Below are positions 1 to 5,336 of a stretch of DNA of 5,336 bases, in pieces; the stretch's first letter is position 1; the number at the start of each line of letters is the position of its first letter. Position numbers and translations under genes: made by a program. The notes below the pieces were generated by a model that saw only the letters and a program-made list of their open reading frames with translations, searched no databases and had not been told where the DNA came from. Origin of the DNA: Candidatus Peribacteria bacterium. GTDB lineage: Bacteria > Patescibacteria > JAEDAM01 > Absconditabacterales > Absconditicoccaceae. The stretch is taken from the NCBI GenBank assembly GCA_031288635.1, contig JAITQZ010000067.1, forward strand, positions 1 through 5,336, given 5' to 3'.

Positions 1-1883
1 GAAGAAAAGTCATTTTAGACGGTTGGGGATTTTATTTCCCGATGTTCCATCAGTTAATGCAGGTGAACCTCAATACCGTAGCGTTTGAAGTAGCACAATA
101 AGGTCCTGAGGCATTTATCACTAAAGATAATTTGCGTGCGGACATTTGTGCAAAGTTCTTTATCAAGGTAAAACGCGATGCCGAAGCTATTGGTCGAGCG
201 GCAACTACCTTGGGTAATAAGGCCGTAGACGATAAGACCTTGAAAGACTTTGCCAATGATAAATTGGTGTCTACACTAAGAAGTGTTACCGCCAAAAGTA
301 CGTTGATTGAATTGCACCAGAATCGTGAACAATTTAAGCAAGATGTTCGCGAAATCGCAGCAAGCGATCTCGAAGAAAATGGCTTTGAGTTAGAAAATGT
401 GTCTATCGTGAAGCTGGATCAAACCGACTATTCACGTATTGACATCAAGAATAACATTTTTGATGCTCAAGGTGCGAAAACCATTGCAGAGACGACACAG
501 GCAGCGTTGGTAGCAAAAAACAAGATTGAAAAATTGGCAGAGGTAGAAAAAGAAAGCCAAAACCTCGAAAATTTGCAACAAATCAACGAAATCAATGTGA
601 AAAAGTCTGAGTCTTCCGCAAATGCTGCTAAAGAACAGCAAAACAAACAAGCTCTGGCTAATGCTGAAGCTCGTGAATTTGCCGCCGAACAACAACGGAA
701 AGCTCAAGAAGCTGAAATTGCCTCAGGAAAAGCAGTTGCGGTGCAGCAAGCGAAAGCTGATCAGGAAACTGAAGCTGCTCGAATTGCTAAAGAAAAGGCT
801 GTGGAAGCTGCTGAATTTGAAAAACAGCAGGCTGTGGAAGCTGCTCGAATTGCTAAGGAACAGGCTGTTGAGACGGCAGATGTGAATAAAAAGCAAACTG
901 TTGCCGTAAAAGATGCCGAAGCGACAAAAGCAAAAGAAGTCGCTGCTCAAGAAGCAGCAATTGCGATTGCTGTTAAAGAGAAAGAAAAAGCTGCTGCAGA
1001 AGAACAGAAGAATTTAGCACTTGCGAAAGCCAAAGCTGCTGAAGAATCCGTTATTACTGCTCAAGCAAAAGCTAAAGCAGACAGAGAAAAAGAAGTCGCT
1101 ATCATCAACGAACAGGCACAAGCGACCAAGACTCAGGTCAAGGAGCAAATGCAGGTTGATGTAGAAGCGTACAAGAAAGAAAAACTTGCTCAGGCCGACA
1201 AAACTGCTGCGTTGAATAAGGCAGAAGCAGTGAGAACCGCTGCACAAGCTGACGCAGATGCTGCAAAACTCCGTGCTGAAGGTCTTAAAGCAGAACAAAT
1301 TGTTCCTGTGGAAGTAGACCAAAGAGCCGTGGAAGTAGAAGCTGCTCGTGTAGCGGTCTTGAAAGACCGTCTGGAAGCTGAAGGTAAAAACTTGGAAGTT
1401 TCCGTAACGAAGGCAATCAATATTGCTGCAATTCAGGCGGACAAGGAAGTTCGTGTTAAATTTGCTGAATCTCTTGGACTTGCCTTCAAAAATGTTGATA
1501 TACAAGTCTTCGGAGACCCGAATACATTGGAAACCGTTCTTGCAAACTTTACAGCAGGTGCGGGTAAGAGTGCCTTTATTACAGGTATTCAAACACCGAT
1601 TTTGCCGGGAGCGACTAAAGGGTCTATAATTAGCAACGATGCGAAAGCATTGATTTCTGATTATTGGAGCGGTCTGAAAACAGCTTTTGAAATCCAAGGT
1701 ACAGCAGATAATGTTAGCACCGAAGTAAAGAGCTTGATTTCTCAATTCGCTCAGTCTTCTGGAGGCGGAAACTTAGCCGGTTTACTGGCTTTGTCCCGTT
1801 TTGTGAAGTCAGACGCAAGTGAAATTGAAGCAGAAAAGCTCGAAAAACTGTATAAAGCTTTGGAAGCAAAATCTGCTGAATAA
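1..1883 (+). CDS. Flotillin-like SPFH/coiled-coil membrane scaffold protein, 5' partial and interrupted by an in-frame UAA
   Basis: Flotillins (FloT/YqiK type) are membrane-anchored scaffolds that oligomerise in lipid microdomains. The frame is open from nt 3 and reads the SPFH core (GWGFYFPMFHQ, then FITKDNLRADICAKFFIKV), then IGRAATTLG, LVSTLRSV and LDQTDY, all typical of the family. A long Ala/Glu/Lys-rich coiled coil covers about nt 550-1400. The C-terminal part includes VFGDPNTLE, as in flotillin tails. The membrane-anchor N-terminus lies outside the window. A UAA at 99-101 splits the conserved SPFH region. The first conventional start after it is TTG at 132, which would give 583 aa, but it has no Shine-Dalgarno sequence and no anchor. 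A point mutation, a sequence error or a decaying gene is therefore more likely than a true start there. All of its roughly 20 glycines use GGN codons and none uses UGA. The stop is UAA. Family assignment is very likely; whether the gene is intact is unresolved. Confidence 0.88.
99..101 (+). other. In-frame UAA inside the conserved flotillin SPFH domain
   Basis: The frame reads ...FEVAQ, UAA, GPEAFITKD.... Both sides match flotillin in the same frame, so there is no frameshift and a single base separates the codon from CAA, GAA or AAA. UAA ends other genes in this window, so reassignment of UAA is unlikely. Confidence 0.85.
771..902 (+). repeat. Four tandem 33-bp (11-residue) repeats in the flotillin coiled coil
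   Basis: Successive 11-residue units read EAARIAKEKAV, EAAEFEKQQAV, EAARIAKEQAV and ETADVNKKQTV. Units 1 and 3 are almost identical in DNA, so the pattern also appears as a 66-bp duplication (771-836 and 837-902). Hendecad periodicity is typical of long, nearly straight coiled coils. The repeat is in phase with the coding frame. Confidence 0.8.
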
Positions 1884-1914
1884 TGAATGATGAATTTTGA
1901 ATATACGTTGAATC

Positions 1915-1940
1915 GTCCCGCTATTTCTAGCGGGACTTTT
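1915..1940 (+). terminator. Rho-independent terminator of the flotillin-like gene
   Basis: A perfect 9-bp stem (GTCCCGCTA at 1915-1923 with TAGCGGGAC at 1928-1936) closes a TTTC loop and is followed at once by TTTT, then CG and TTTT. It lies 32 nt after the UAA stop and separates this gene from the tRNA cluster. Confidence 0.93.
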
Positions 1941-1983
1941 CGTTTTATTCCATTTTCCTCATAAAAAAATCTTTCATTTCCTC

Positions 1984-2011
1984 TTGATTTTCTCCTCCGA
2001 TTTCGTACACT
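1984..2011 (+). promoter_or_regulatory. Putative sigma-70 promoter of the tRNA cluster
   Basis: TTGATT (1984-1989) and TACACT (2006-2011) are separated by 16 nt. They fall between the terminator and the first tRNA, implying a leader of about 25 nt before the mature tRNA 5' end. The match to consensus is moderate and was made by eye. Confidence 0.45.
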
Positions 2012-2042
2012 ACTAACCACTTATGGGTAGCAATGAGGTTGT

Positions 2043-2116
2043 GCGGATATGATGTAGTTGGTGTAGCATAGCAGACTTCAGCTCTGCTCGTACGGGTTCA
2101 AGTCCCGTTATCCGCT
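2043..2116 (+). tRNA. tRNA-Gly(UCA), decodes UGA as glycine
   Basis: A complete cloverleaf is visible: a 7-bp acceptor (GCGGATA with TATCCGC), a 4-bp D stem with a canonical AGTTGGTGTA loop, a 5-bp anticodon stem (GCAGA with TCTGC), loop CTTCAGC with anticodon TCA at 2078-2080, a 4-nt variable region, and a 5-bp T stem with loop TTCAAGT. The discriminator is U73 and CCA is not encoded. C35, U73, G1-C72 and C2-G71 are known bacterial glycine identity elements. U73 argues against tRNA-Trp (G73), and the short variable loop and 7-bp acceptor rule out tRNA-Sec. tRNA-Gly(UCA) is the known adaptor for table 25. Position 37 is G, which is unusual beside A36. The fold is near certain and the Gly charging is an inference from the identity elements. 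Confidence 0.95.
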
Positions 2117-2138
2117 ATTTATACTTTGTAGATGGATA

Positions 2139-2375
2139 ATGAAAGCTTTTCTTCTCGGACTCGTCTTTATGGGAGTGGGTGGTGCAATGATGTATTATGC
2201 CTACCCTCTCAAGGAAATGTTTGGGCAGAATGCTTGGGCGGAGAGAAACCTCGGAGGAACGAGAAATCTGTTTCTGATGATGGGGTTTGTCTTGATTATT
2301 GTAGGAGGATTGATAATGTTTGGCATTGTGCAAGTTGCTAATCCTACCGAATCATTACCTGAAGGAATTACTTAA
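2139..2375 (+). CDS. Small two-helix membrane protein (78 aa), function unknown
   Basis: I do not recognise a named function. The protein has a hydrophobic segment at about residues 4-22, a short polar loop (FGQNAWAERNLGGTRN), a second helix at about 46-67 and a short polar tail. Small proteins of this shape, with a WAE-x-x-LGGTR-like loop before the second helix, seem to me familiar from Candidate Phyla Radiation genomes; this is an impression and was not searched. ATG at 2139 is chosen because it begins the first helix; GATGGA just upstream is at best a weak Shine-Dalgarno. The stop UAA (2373-2375) leaves one nucleotide before tRNA-Tyr, so the gene is probably co-transcribed with the flanking tRNAs and its mRNA may be cut during tRNA processing. 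It contains no in-frame UGA among about a dozen glycines. Confidence 0.82.
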   Translation: MKAFLLGLVFMGVGGAMMYYAYPLKEMFGQNAWAERNLGGTRNLFLMMGFVLIIVGGLIMFGIVQVANPTESLPEGIT

Positions 2376-2376
2376 T

Positions 2377-2459
2377 GGGGAGATGGCAGAGCGGTCAATT
2401 GCAGCTGACTGTAAATCAGCCGCCTCACGGCTACGTAAGTTCAAATCTTACTCTCCCCA
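2377..2459 (+). tRNA. tRNA-Tyr(GUA)
   Basis: The 7-bp acceptor GGGGAGA pairs with TCTCCCC, followed by A73. The anticodon stem GCTGA pairs with TCAGC, and the loop CTGTAAA gives anticodon GTA (2411-2413). A long variable arm (GCC...GGC hairpin) marks a class II tRNA, as expected for bacterial tRNA-Tyr. The T stem GTAAG pairs with CTTAC. A36-A37-A38 fits MiaA recognition. CCA is not encoded. Confidence 0.96.
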
Positions 2460-2463
2460 AAAT

Positions 2464-2536
2464 GGGCTCTTAGCTTAGTTGGTAGAGCGCCTGCTTTGCA
2501 CGCAGGAGGTCAGGGGTTCGACTCCCCTAGAGTCCA
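2464..2536 (+). tRNA. tRNA-Ala(UGC)
   Basis: The acceptor GGGCTCT pairs with AGAGTCC and includes the G3-U70 wobble that specifies alanine. The anticodon stem CCTGC pairs with GCAGG, and the loop TTTGCAC gives anticodon TGC (2497-2499). The T arm is AGGGG-TTCGACT-CCCCT and A73 is present. CCA is not encoded. It starts 4 nt after tRNA-Tyr, so the two are almost certainly processed from one transcript. Confidence 0.97.
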
Positions 2537-2608
2537 AAAAAAGGTTTTCGTTGAACCATCGGCGGAAATTTTTTCGAACAGCCTTTTATCTTTTTTTCCT
2601 TTCTAGAG

Positions 2609-3073
2609 ATGACAGAAAACCATTTTTCTATCAAAGTCGCAGACCTCCTCAATCATCTCGGAAGCGATACGATTGAGTTTTCAGAGATCAAGACCCCCCT
2701 TTTACCTAATTTGACTGTGGAAGGACTCAAAGGAACTCTCTATCTCCATTCGGTAGATGGGAAAAGCGTGCTTGTTCGCGTGGAACGCCTGGAAGGAGCA
2801 ATTCAAGAAATCTGTGAATGCTGCGGAGCTCCGTTTGTACGCCCTTTTTATATTGAAGTATATACTGCGAAATTCACGCTTGATGTGGATGAAGAACAGG
2901 ATTCTGCAGAAGAAGTATTTCTCCCCATTGACTGAAAAAATGCTACTATCAATATTGAAGAAATGCTGTACCAGGCAGTAAAATTACAAGACCCTTTTGT
3001 GATGAGATGTGCAGCGTGTGAAGCCACTACAGCAGATGATAAAGAGGAATTAGAGGAGTCCTCCCTTATCTAG
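2609..3073 (+). CDS. DUF177/YceD-like protein (154 aa), completed by UGA read as Gly109
   Basis: YceD (DUF177) proteins are linked to large-subunit rRNA accumulation and usually lie beside rpmF. Visible here are a first cysteine cluster (C69, C71, C72 in EICECCGAPF), the F-x-IEVYTAKF strand, PIDG-K-ATINIEE, then ALK-like helix residues and Q-DPFVMRC-AAC with C134 and C137. This paired-cysteine plan and length fit the family. The UGA at 2933-2935 is read as glycine; the standard code would end the protein at residue 108 and remove the second CxxC. The stop is UAG (3071-3073). ATG at 2609 follows a pyrimidine tract and has no clear Shine-Dalgarno. No rpmF follows. The final 24 nt overlap the tail of the opposite-strand PrgI-like gene. 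It may be transcribed from the tRNA promoter. The gene call is strong; the family name is by eye. Confidence 0.82.
2933..2935 (+). other. UGA decoded as glycine (YceD-like Gly109)
   Basis: The 45 codons after this UGA are open and carry PFVMRC-AAC, the second Cys pair expected in DUF177 proteins. GGA and GGG glycine codons occur elsewhere in the same gene, so UGA is an additional rather than sole glycine codon. Confidence 0.85.
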
Positions 3074-3490
3074 TTTATCAAGCGTATTAAAATCCCTTCA
3101 GCTTTTTATTTCAATTTTTTGCTTGCTCTCTCTTTGGCGAGATTTAGCGATAATGATATCAGAAGGCTGATTTTTTTTGAAATTGATTTGGAATTTTCTC
3201 GTAGTATCCAGAAAAAGGTCTCTAATTTTCTTTGCCATAAACTCCAAAAGGTTCATCTCAGAGACTTTGAAAAAAGTAATAAAAGCAAACATCAGGATAA
3301 TAATCACTGCAAAAATTACTCCCAATTCTTTTGCGTCCGCTTTTTGAAACGTACTAAACGTCGCGAGAGCAATGACAATCCCTATCGCCATCAGAAACAT
3401 CTGTATCATCGTAATATTAAATCACAAAATACTAATCCCAAATCCGGAAAAGAACCCTTTTTGAATATTCTGTGGGAAGATAACTTTCAT
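3050..3490 (-). CDS. PrgI-like two-helix membrane protein (146 aa), two UGA codons read as Gly
   Basis: PrgI-type proteins are small inner-membrane proteins found beside conjugation or type IV secretion-like ATPase genes. The N-terminus MKVIFPQNIQ resembles the VPQ/IPQ opening of that family. Two helices follow at about residues 27-45 and 56-74, then a conserved-looking FKVSEMNLLEFMAKKIRD and RKFQINF segment, and a charged Lys/Gln-rich tail ending DKGGLL. UGA at 3422-3424 (Gly23) and 3098-3100 (Gly131) lie in frame. Without table 25 the start would be placed at 3409 and the end at 3098, losing the N-terminal motif. ATG at 3490 is chosen for that motif, although the sequence upstream is pyrimidine-rich with no Shine-Dalgarno. 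The stop is UAA (3050-3052). It is the probable second gene after the membrane protein at 3622-4227. The PrgI name is moderate; the gene itself is well supported. Confidence 0.8.
3098..3100 (-). other. UGA decoded as glycine (PrgI-like Gly131)
   Basis: Reading through it adds RDFNTLDKLDKGGLL before a UAA at 3050-3052, a hydrophilic continuation of the charged tail. Confidence 0.75.
3422..3424 (-). other. UGA decoded as glycine (PrgI-like Gly23)
   Basis: It lies between ATG 3490 and the first helix. Reading through it joins MKVIFPQNIQ to the membrane segments in one frame. Confidence 0.78.
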
Positions 3491-3621
3491 AGGAGCAAAG
3501 GAGAGATAAAAGAGAAAAAGAGGAAAGTTTAAAGAGGAAAGTCGAAAGTTTTTTCTACTTTTCTTTATTTTATTCAAAAACAGGAAATTTGCAACTTTTC
3601 TCAGCTTTTTTCTTACGTTTC
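3491..3621. other. Intergenic spacer, purine-rich low-complexity with short repeats
   Basis: This 131-nt gap lies between two minus-strand genes. On the plus strand it carries reiterations of GAGGAAAGT/GAAAGT (about 3519-3550) followed by a T-rich stretch. A weak GAAAGT...ACTTTT inversion is present, but it has no good stem and I do not call a terminator. It may separate the two genes or hold a promoter; neither is clear. Confidence 0.4.
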
Positions 3622-4227
3622 TTATTCTTCTCCTAGTCCTTCTGGTAAGGTGGTGGACTTTTTTGCAAAACTCAACTTCATACGAATATGACTTGAAATC
3701 AGCAAGACAATAACCCCGTGAGTGAGCATTCGTAGTGGCATCGCTTGGATAAAATTACCAACGAAAGAAAACGTACCACTTACATTTTGCTTTATCATTG
3801 TCATCGTTTCAATCCCTTGCCCCATCACTGCCAAGGAGAGAGCAAAAATAAAGCTGAGCAAGGTCAGAGGAATTAGTGCAATATAGTACAATTTTTCAGC
3901 TGAGGGATTTTGCATTGTAGAGACTTTGATGGTACTAGAAGTATAGACTAAGATGGTTAATATGACGAATAATAATAAAACGAAGGTCAGTTGTCCCGTA
4001 TTTAGGAAATTTGCCAATGTTTGGTAATTCAGCCCGAGAAAACTGGTTTCTGGAGTGCTTGCCAATTGGTTTGCCCAATAGTGGATACTCTCCCCAAAGG
4101 CGTAACAGGTTCCTCCGATGATGTAATTGCCAATGATGAGGCTGACCATTTTTTCTGTTCCCATAATGATTGCCCAAATGAGGATGGCAATTGCTCCGAG
4201 GAGAATGGCGTAGCCAATTCGTTCCAT
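3622..4227 (-). CDS. Polytopic membrane protein (201 aa), function unknown
   Basis: I do not recognise the family. Hydrophobic segments lie at about residues 4-23, 28-44, 79-95, 114-136 and 160-180, separated by a polar loop (about 45-75, including the HYWANQL and STPETSF motifs). The tail is charged (RMKLSFAKK and EGLGEE). This suggests four or five membrane spans. ATG at 4227 is the first start after an in-frame UAG at 4240-4242; no Shine-Dalgarno is visible. The stop is UAA (3622-3624). No in-frame UGA occurs despite about 15 glycines. It lies upstream of the PrgI-like gene on the same strand, which suggests a part in a secretion- or conjugation-like membrane complex; this is inference from position only. 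A divergent promoter region separates it from the pilin-like gene. Confidence 0.88.
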   Translation of the reverse strand: MERIGYAILLGAIAILIWAIIMGTEKMVSLIIGNYIIGGTCYAFGESIHYWANQLASTPETSFLGLNYQTLANFLNTGQLTFVLLLFVILTILVYTSSTIKVSTMQNPSAEKLYYIALIPLTLLSFIFALSLAVMGQGIETMTMIKQNVSGTFSFVGNFIQAMPLRMLTHGVIVLLISSHIRMKLSFAKKSTTLPEGLGEE

Positions 4228-4258
4228 ATTGCTTGATAGCTATGAAATAAAAATTAGA

Positions 4259-4286
4259 TTGATTATTTAGTGTGATTCTATAGTAT
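4259..4286 (+). promoter_or_regulatory. Putative promoter of the pilin-like gene
   Basis: TTGATT (4259-4264) and TAGTAT (4281-4286) are 16 nt apart, giving a leader of about 35 nt before ATG 4328. Matches are moderate. It shares the near-palindromic ATTCTATAGTAT core with the minus-strand promoter. Confidence 0.4.
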
Positions 4287-4307
4287 GAACTTGGTAAAGA
4301 TTTTCAA
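4280..4307 (-). promoter_or_regulatory. Putative promoter of the minus-strand membrane-protein operon
   Basis: On the minus strand TTGAAA (4307-4302) and TACTAT (4285-4280) are 16 nt apart. The implied leader to ATG 4227 is about 45 nt. Matches are moderate. Its -10 overlaps the -10 of the opposite promoter. Confidence 0.4.
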
Positions 4308-4327
4308 TTTATTTTTCTATTTAGAGA

Positions 4328-5005
4328 ATGTCTAAAGCTCAACGTGGTTTTACCTTAATTGAAACAATCATAGCACTCACGCTTTTTGCATTTGTGATTA
4401 TTGGGGTATTTATGGCGGTCAATAGAGCCTATGCGTTTGTCCAACAAGCTAAACTCAATGTGATTGCGATGAATTTAACCAGAGAAGGAGTAGAGATGAT
4501 GTATAATATTAGAGATACAAACTGGAAAAGGCGGGCTGGAGTAAAGGATACCCATTGGTTGAAGAGAGATAGTTTCACCGGGAGTAACTCGAGTGATTTG
4601 TTTTCCAACAACGGAAGCGGTGTATATGCTCTTATCTGGAAAGATTCTAGCACCAATCAAACCTATGCTACCACAACCGTAACAGACTGTGATTATGATG
4701 CTACTGTAATAAGCTTCATAAATAATCCTTCTCCCAACTGCAAAAATTATTCTCTATTATCTTTTACGGGGAATGTGATGTTGTCTGGGGTATCTACTCC
4801 GATTTCTGGTCTGATGGCACAAGAGGGAGATTTTTATAGGATAGTGAAAGTAATTGGATTGTATAATAAAAGATGAAACAATGCTAATATAGCAGCGACT
4901 GATTGTGAAGCTTGTGAGCTTCGTTTTTGTGTGAAGACCTTTTACGTAGGAGTCTATAATGGAGCTACAGAACTGTGTAGCGTGATGACGAATTTCAGGG
5001 AGTAG
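4328..5005 (+). CDS. Type IV pilin-like protein (225 aa) with class III signal peptide; UGA read as Gly183
   Basis: The N-terminus MSKAQRG^FTLIETIIALTLF is a textbook prepilin: a short basic leader, cleavage by PilD-type peptidase after Gly7, Phe+1 and Glu+5, then a hydrophobic helix to about residue 30. The exported domain is Ser/Thr/Asn-rich with C121 and C138. UGA at 4874-4876 continues into GNNANIAATDCEACELRFC and then an 18-residue stretch ending LCSVMTNFRE, before UAG at 5003-5005. This adds C193, C196, C201 and C217, so four of the six cysteines lie beyond the UGA; disulfides in the exported pilin are plausible. ATG 4328 gives the short leader expected; AGAG just before it is only a weak ribosome site. 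The protein could be a major pilin or a pseudopilin; nothing here distinguishes them. It is divergent from the membrane-protein operon. Confidence 0.92.
4874..4876 (+). other. UGA decoded as glycine (pilin Gly183)
   Basis: The 42 residues beyond it include four cysteines and hydrophobic/polar strand patterns (RFCVKTFYVGVYNG) that look like a genuine folded pilin C-terminus. Confidence 0.87.
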
Positions 5006-5095
5006 AGGGGGAAAGGCTTCTGTGGTGGAGGGAGGTATGGTTTGTATGTGACGGGGGAACAAATCATTTGGACGTGATGAAGAAACAAATGCGTC

Positions 5096-5137
5096 CGAAC
5101 GGTTTATTTCCCCAGCAAAATACATCCGAACCGTTTG
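5096..5137 (+). other. Imperfect inverted repeat beside the tandem repeat
   Basis: AACGGTT (5098-5104) pairs with AACCGTT (5129-5135). With wobble pairs the stem extends to about 10 bp around a 22-nt loop. No T-run follows, so it does not look like an intrinsic terminator. Confidence 0.4.
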
Positions 5138-5139
5138 TC

Positions 5140-5211
5140 AAACCACCCACCAACATCAAACCATTCACCAACATCAAACCATTCACCAACATCAAACCAT
5201 TCACCTACAAA
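5140..5211. repeat. 18-bp tandem repeat (minisatellite), about four units
   Basis: The unit is AAACCATTCACCAACATC. Unit 1 (5140-5157) has two changes, units 2 (5158-5175) and 3 (5176-5193) are perfect, and unit 4 (5194-5211) matches for its first 12 nt. On the plus strand, read from ATG 5077, it encodes NIKPFT repeats; on the minus strand it encodes VGEWFD repeats. Confidence 0.9.
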
Positions 5212-5336
5212 TACTAAATAAGGAAACTCTGAATAACCAAAAATTAGACATAAAAAAATATCCCTCTTAGAAAATAAGGAATTTTTATACATTGAGAGGC
5301 GTGTGTATACGTTATTTTTCTCTACTTAAACTTACT

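Follow-up and report, generated by a model that had tools for sequence, protein, structure and literature searches.

The window analysed here is the whole of a 5,336-nucleotide (nt) stretch of bacterial DNA (contig JAITQZ010000067.1, positions 1 to 5,336), and the subject of this study is its transfer RNA (tRNA) gene with anticodon UCA, together with the meaning of the UGA, CGA and CGG codons in the genes around it. Three tRNA genes and six gene-sized frames were found in the window, and the GC content, in 500-base windows, was 0.35–0.45. The tRNA with anticodon UCA (2043..2116) is followed on the forward strand by a small membrane-protein-like open reading frame (ORF) of 78 amino acids (aa; 2139..2375) and by genes called as tRNA-Tyr(GUA) (2376..2460) and tRNA-Ala(UGC) (2463..2537). 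Downstream lie a YceD-like (DUF177) ORF of 154 aa when UGA is translated as glycine (2609..3073, forward strand, stop TAG), a PrgI-like membrane-protein ORF (3050..3577, reverse strand, likely start ATG 3490-3488, stop TAA), the gene for a 201-aa membrane-type protein (3622..4227, reverse strand, stop TAA) and a type IV prepilin-like ORF of 225 aa (4328..5005, forward strand, stop TAG). The sixth, an SPFH/flotillin-like frame, enters from the left edge (3..1883, forward strand, stop TAA).

The family names were taken from Pfam. YceD matched residues 61-150 of its ORF at E 2.4e-6, under the Pfam cut-off; PrgI matched at E 7.5e-6, slightly under the cut-off; and N_methyl matched the prepilin-like ORF at E 9.1e-8, over the cut-off. 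The 201-aa protein had no Pfam match at E 1. The stop codons of the six inferred genes were TAA, TAA, TAG, TAA, TAA and TAG; UAA ends four of the six and UGA none, in agreement with the original prediction, made from the letters of the window, that all six end in UAA or UAG.

The tRNA with anticodon UCA

The gene at 2043-2116 was detected by both ARAGORN and Rfam, is 74 nt long and fits the ordinary tRNA model end to end. Its acceptor end carries G1-C72, C2-G71, G3-C70 and U73, and the glycine features ascribed to it in the original prediction were confirmed. ARAGORN labelled the gene 'SeC', which we take to reflect the anticodon only. Selenocysteine tRNAs (tRNA-Sec) are about 90 nt or longer and have a long variable arm. 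A tRNA-Sec identity was considered and rejected: the gene shares the anticodon UCA, but it is short, its arms are ordinary with no long arm among them, and its acceptor end is that of a glycine tRNA.

The sequence of the window tRNA is identical at 74/74 bases in three relatives (G001, G093 and G149). At 30 relatives' loci, 29 tRNA-UCA genes were called, and 28 of these have the same acceptor set; the exception, at L039, has A3-U70, and no tRNA-UCA was called at L038, where the contig ends within the tRNA. The combination G1-C72, C2-G71, G3-C70 and U73 is the rule for tRNA-Gly(UCA) in the available text of PMC8629427.

In 28 of the 30 genomes whose tRNA locus was examined, a homologue of the 78-aa ORF lies close to the tRNA-UCA gene, and at two loci (L007 and L008) a tRNA-Tyr gene follows, an arrangement like that of the window. 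No named family was found for this ORF over cut-off; all of its Pfam matches were under the cut-off and were not used.

In-frame UGA codons

Four TGA codons lie in frame, distributed over three frames: 2933-2935 (forward strand, residue 109 of the YceD-like ORF), 3424-3422 and 3100-3098 (reverse strand, the first and second UGA of the PrgI-like ORF) and 4874-4876 (forward strand, residue 183 of the prepilin-like ORF). At all four sites homologues extend beyond the codon, as had been proposed, and when the extended proteins were compared with related genomes the homologues did not stop at the UGA positions. For the YceD-like protein, 13/13 database relatives run past the site (the window's own table-11 copy, which is cut there, was left out).

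The closest comparison was with L001, the locus of genome G001 (JAISMG010000013.1, 'Candidatus Peribacteria bacterium isolate Im510_bin22'), in which the YceD, PrgI, membrane-protein and pilin genes have the same order and orientations as in the window. The PrgI-like frame is identical to that of L001 at 111/161 residues, with agreement on both sides of each UGA, and the pilin frame at 110/220, with agreement on both sides of its UGA; the 201-aa protein is identical at 120/199. Conserved sequence after the UGAs in this comparison includes the tail LDKGGLL after 3100 and ELRFCVK...SVMTNF after 4874. An alternative start at ATG 3409 in the PrgI-like frame would bypass UGA 3424, and the argument for that codon therefore depends on the conservation upstream of it. 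Two database proteins show the expected traces of annotation with the standard code: P0009 (142 aa) is the YceD-like frame of L001 cut at its own UGA, and P0139 begins at an inner codon downstream of a UGA.

A 1574-aa frame on the minus strand of L001 (6677-11401) contains 45 in-frame UGAs and has glycine-rich and repeated stretches. When viral contigs were scanned with the YceD alignment, 79 stretches matched a pattern, and none of them was a relative.

It is highly improbable that UGA is a stop codon here, with gene decay, readthrough or selenocysteine accounting for the continuations. An in-frame UAA in the first gene of the window (see below) does indicate some decay or error. Against a stop stand the conservation of sequence beyond each of the four UGAs, which occupy three frames, a 74-nt tRNA without the long arm of tRNA-Sec, the lack of any window gene ending in UGA, and the occurrence of relatives' UGAs at many window glycines. 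Judged by homology, the four UGAs of the window are sense codons.

The amino acid was addressed by comparing the window codon by codon with its relatives (28 for the 78-aa ORF, 15 for the YceD-like ORF and three each for the other three genes); TGA, CGA and CGG were masked, and the alignment was thus blind to their meaning. TGA in the relatives stood opposite a window glycine at 143 of 197 places, the next most frequent residue being valine (11 places), and opposite a window tryptophan at two. The glycine preceding FTLIE in the prepilin signal, for example, is encoded by GGT in the window and by TGA in G001, G141 and G003. For the window's own UGAs, two of the four sites were opposite glycine in any relative read as DNA: 4874 (GGA in G001, with Ala in G141 and Ser in G003) and 3424 (GGA in G141, with UGA in G001 and CCG in G003).

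A second count was made between G001 and an RF2-bearing genome (G049; RF2, release factor 2), with the same three codons masked, over 401,528 bases of G001 and 91 frames with a match. TGA of G001 was opposite glycine at 78 of 135 places (next Ala, 13; Trp, 5; Arg, 2), and the control codon GGA at 595 of 860. In an earlier version of this count (307,439 bases, 62 frames, gaps counted) TGA was opposite glycine at 61/111 places. Small stretches of other relatives gave 13/22 (G141), 6/10 (G093), 45/75 (G149), 12/23 (G087) and 39/68 (G003).

Release factors were then compared. The single release-factor match in each of G001, G002 and G003 is release factor 1 (RF1) by NCBIfam and lies under the RF2 cut-off. 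For a survey of the class of G001, 192 genomes were sampled, a tRNA match was accepted at E 1e-5 and RF2 was scored by the curated cut-off. The tRNA was matched in 32/192 genomes (in one, G110, over 24 bases only) and RF2 was over cut-off in 115/192; no genome had both (0/192, or 0 of the 32 tRNA-matching genomes with RF2). The exclusion gives a Fisher p of 1.6e-15 with kinship between genomes ignored.

Several observations weigh against glycine as the meaning of UGA. In the window comparison 54/197 relatives' UGAs were opposite something other than a window GGN codon, one of them a window UGA. No glycine was found opposite UGA 2933 in the 15 relatives read as DNA, or opposite UGA 3100 in the three relatives, which have N, S and Q there. 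Site 2933 is variable, and the 13 database relatives have K (5), A (4), R, M, V and G (one each, the glycine in P0014). In the class survey, 45/192 genomes, including the SR1 genome G002, had neither RF2 over cut-off nor a tRNA match; it follows that either part of the clade, with a diverged tRNA, escapes the tRNA search or some genomes are incomplete.

The alternative that UGA is sense but encodes arginine, or tryptophan as it does in mycoplasmas, could draw on site 2933, at which the closest YceD relative (P0001, 86% identical) has arginine and 0/15 relatives read as DNA have glycine. It is nonetheless very unlikely. U73 and the G1-C72/C2-G71/G3-C70 stem suit glycine and not tryptophan, and both codon counts, with 143 window glycines to two tryptophans in the first and 78 glycines to five tryptophans and two arginines in the second, run against it. 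At the level of sequence, the reading of UGA as glycine is supported by the acceptor set of the tRNA, by relatives' UGAs at window glycines (143/197), and by a near relative, G001, that has the identical tRNA and RF1 and no RF2 over cut-off. The original prediction of glycine was upheld in this sense. It had also described the window as a self-contained demonstration, which holds for the sense character of its UGAs; the identity of the amino acid was derived from the tRNA and other genomes, and the window's own UGAs, with 2/4 sites facing glycine, are weak evidence for it. Glycine is shown by the relatives and would apply to the window by extension from them.

CGA and CGG codons

In the same masked comparison, CGA or CGG of relatives stood opposite a window tryptophan at 18 of 27 places (CGA 15/23, CGG 3/4), and two more CGA codons were opposite a window CGA. 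Two codons of the window itself, both probably tryptophan, face TGG in L003 (one of three relatives each): CGA 3732-3730 (reverse strand), residue 166 of the 201-aa protein, where G001 and G141 have CGA, and CGG 4532-4534 (forward strand), residue 69 of the prepilin-like ORF, where G001 has Tyr and G141 has Asn. At residue 166, the 13 of 16 database relatives that reach the site show no residue but R (7) and W (6); a row of one residue (L116:1-3) was excluded from these counts. Two of the W rows, P0137 and P0148, weigh little, since they have W at positions that are G in others and their sources may have translated UGA as W; the codon behind the W of P0140 was sought in the available stretches and was not found. 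A further CGA, at residue 3 of the 201-aa protein (4219..4221, reverse strand), is probably tryptophan by analogy; it is CGA also in G001 and G141 and hence uninformative alone.

The exchange also occurs in the other direction. G001 has CGA or CGG at four tryptophan codons of the window, two in the 201-aa protein (residues 18 and 51) and two in the pilin (residues 66 and 77); G141 and G003 have CGA at pilin residues 66 and 77 and UGA at residue 51 of the 201-aa protein. Trp33 of the 78-aa ORF is encoded in the 28 relatives by TGG (17), CGA (9) and CGG (1), with Phe in one.

Against G049, CGA of G001 was opposite Trp at 25 of 90 places (Tyr 11, Phe 9, Leu 7, Arg 3) and TGG at 38 of 94 (Phe 11, Tyr 9, Leu 7), and AGA was opposite Arg at 369/580. 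The CGA profile of G001 resembles that of TGG and is unlike that of AGA. The tRNA-UCG and tRNA-CCG genes of G001, for which tryptophan features were sought (G73 and no A20), end in G73, and the CCG one has A1-U72 (stems and D-loop were read by eye); tRNA-Trp(CCA) is also present in this genome, and the window itself contains neither the UCG nor the CCG tRNA. The label 'tRNA-Arg' given to both by ARAGORN was taken as a consequence of the anticodon alone.

Other results go against tryptophan. CGG of G001 is mixed, with six Arg and three Trp among 21 places, and the Arg-facing places were not traceable to one single gene. CGA faces Trp unevenly in the small samples from other relatives (G141 3/10, G093 2/2, G149 1/5, G087 0/2, G003 0/3), and the single CGG of G003 is opposite Arg. 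The SPFH-like gene at the left edge has four CGA/CGG codons (at 195, 696, 780 and 846), and no Trp was found among 119 homologues at these sites; the most frequent residue is Arg at two of them (60 and 29 of 119), and Asn and Glu at the others.

These same points favour CGA and CGG still being arginine in the window's organism, with table 25 complete: the SPFH-like sites, the mixed CGG of G001, the lack of Trp at three CGA and one CGG in G003, and the residue-3 CGA, which is CGA in both close relatives and silent on meaning. That arginine is retained is nevertheless unlikely, given CGA/CGG at window tryptophan codons in G001 (four sites in two genes) and G141 (two sites), TGG in L003 opposite residues 166 (CGA) and 69 (CGG), and the restriction of residue 166 to R and W in database relatives. 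These alignments make it very probable that CGA and CGG encode tryptophan in the window's organism. The attribution to table 25 in the original prediction was accordingly right for UGA as glycine and does not cover this very probable second change, which lies outside that table. We know of no numbered NCBI table that combines UGA as glycine with CGA and CGG as tryptophan.

The available text of PMC8629427 (Codetta, 2021) reports CGA and CGG as tryptophan in Absconditabacteria, and CGG as tryptophan in some Gracilibacteria; since both changes are already described there, the present result is an extension and no discovery. The two cases are alike in CGA/CGG at tryptophan positions, in the G73 tRNAs with anticodons UCG and CCG (here in G001) and in the background of UGA as glycine. 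They differ in that codon exchange with TGG was observed here among the window, the Peribacteria-labelled genome, G141 and a Gracilibacteria-labelled genome, and the GC content of the window extends above the range of 0.26-0.38 given in that source.

The SPFH/flotillin-like gene and the placement of the organism

The SPFH-like frame is open from 3 to 1883 save for a UAA at 99-101, which was overlooked in the original prediction. The site is variable, with 15 different residues opposite it in 118 homologues. UAA as a sense codon was rejected: the codon stands opposite 15 residue types and UAA ends four of the six window genes. A terminator-like hairpin with a T tail lies 3' of the gene (1915..1936, forward strand); two such sites were found in 1850-2650, and 1.0 is expected from shuffles. 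TGG at window 24-26 stands where 116/117 aligned SPFH homologues have glycine, and an alignment error is possible there, as the site is close to the left edge of the window.

The gene has no UGA in 626 codons, which is not significant (p 0.57). Glycine is encoded by GGT at 13/23 places, as against 7/59 in the other five genes (Fisher p 7e-5). The SPFH protein had no match in 75 of the 77 class genomes without RF2 over cut-off, in a search that had no positive control, and weak matches (E 6e-5 and 6e-4) in the remaining two; it had no match at E 0.01 in the relatives' loci (G049 left out). Upstream of the tRNA, seven relatives' loci were inspected; the tRNA was not located in L170, and no SPFH-like gene was found in the other six, of which G087 and G182 share one upstream gene and the rest differ. 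A phage origin was not favoured, since the two phage records found were 40% identical over 27% and 39% identical over 12% of the query.

The SPFH-like gene is probably foreign, or a chimeric join. The gene may have been transferred from a donor with the standard code and then have decayed, the UAA may be a sequencing error, or the contig may be chimeric. That positions 1-1883 come from another organism and were joined by misassembly has a real though minority chance. The GGT usage, the lack of UGA, the CGA/CGG codons at non-tryptophan sites and the absence of a match in 75/77 class genomes without RF2 over cut-off are in its favour, but the UGA absence is not significant when taken alone, the genome searches lacked a positive control, and the same pattern would be expected if the gene had recently been transferred into a genuine chromosome. 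Such a transfer is, more tentatively, conceivable: an organism with three changed codons would have recently acquired an SPFH/flotillin-like gene from a standard-code donor, still with CGA/CGG at arginine or polar non-tryptophan sites and without UGA, and now broken by UAA, its CGA and CGG being misread as tryptophan. Should the gene prove to have entered recently, the fate of standard-code genes in a recoded host could be observed in it directly.

The window almost certainly comes from the chromosome of an uncultured patescibacterium belonging to the clade that reads UGA as glycine (Absconditabacteria/Gracilibacteria, by the literature GTDB JAEDAM01), in which UGA is glycine and CGA and CGG are very probably tryptophan. 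In the proposed mechanism, glycyl-tRNA synthetase would recognise the acceptor end of tRNA-Gly(UCA) (G1-C72, C2-G71, G3-C70 and U73) and charge the molecule, and this dedicated tRNA would place glycine at UGA; RF2 would have been lost, judging from the relatives, and RF1 would terminate genes at UAA and UAG only. CGA and CGG would be read as tryptophan by tRNA-Trp-type molecules with anticodons UCG and CCG, of the kind carried by G001. The system resembles NCBI table 25, the code with UGA as glycine known from Absconditabacteria (SR1) and Gracilibacteria (BD1-5), in the published tRNA-Gly(UCA) acceptor set, the in-frame UGA and the UAA/UAG gene ends, as well as in RF2 not being found in the tRNA-bearing relatives of the window; there is no difference in kind. 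That code has been known since 2013, as cited in the available text of PMC13293708 and PMC8629427, and proteomics of a BD1-5 bacterium yielded 97 peptides unique to UGA as glycine, three to UGA as tryptophan and none to UGA as a stop, according to the accessible part of PMC4032931.

Placement in Absconditabacteria or Gracilibacteria, as originally proposed, fits the code; on the other side, the nearest named public genome, G001, is filed in NCBI under Candidatus Peribacteria. For Peregrinibacteria the standard code with RF2 is expected. This expectation does not hold for G001, which has tRNA-Gly(UCA), UGA opposite glycine at 78/135 places and no RF2 over cut-off, and it was placed with the recoded clade on account of its code, tRNA and release factor. 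The Peribacteria label is carried by 6 of 14 relatives of the YceD-like protein and 4 of 17 relatives of the 201-aa protein, these names being available for part of the proteins only, and a Bacteroidia label by one relative of each. The Peribacteria-labelled isolates presumably come from termite guts, to judge from isolate names of this kind. The accessible portion of one review restricts UGA-to-glycine to the Gracilibacteria/JAEDAM01 lineage. A literature search combining Peribacteria, Gracilibacteria or Absconditabacteria with termite gave no title on recoded termite-gut genomes among the matches listed, subscription journals being mostly outside its reach.

The glycine code itself is not new biology; what is added is the CGA/CGG part and a misfiled public relative. 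Other Peribacteria-labelled records encode close relatives of the window proteins, and recoding is therefore likely there too. At least one genome publicly filed as 'Candidatus Peribacteria' (L001/G001) is a member of the recoded clade, and its CGA codons, probably tryptophan, would be mistranslated even under table 25.

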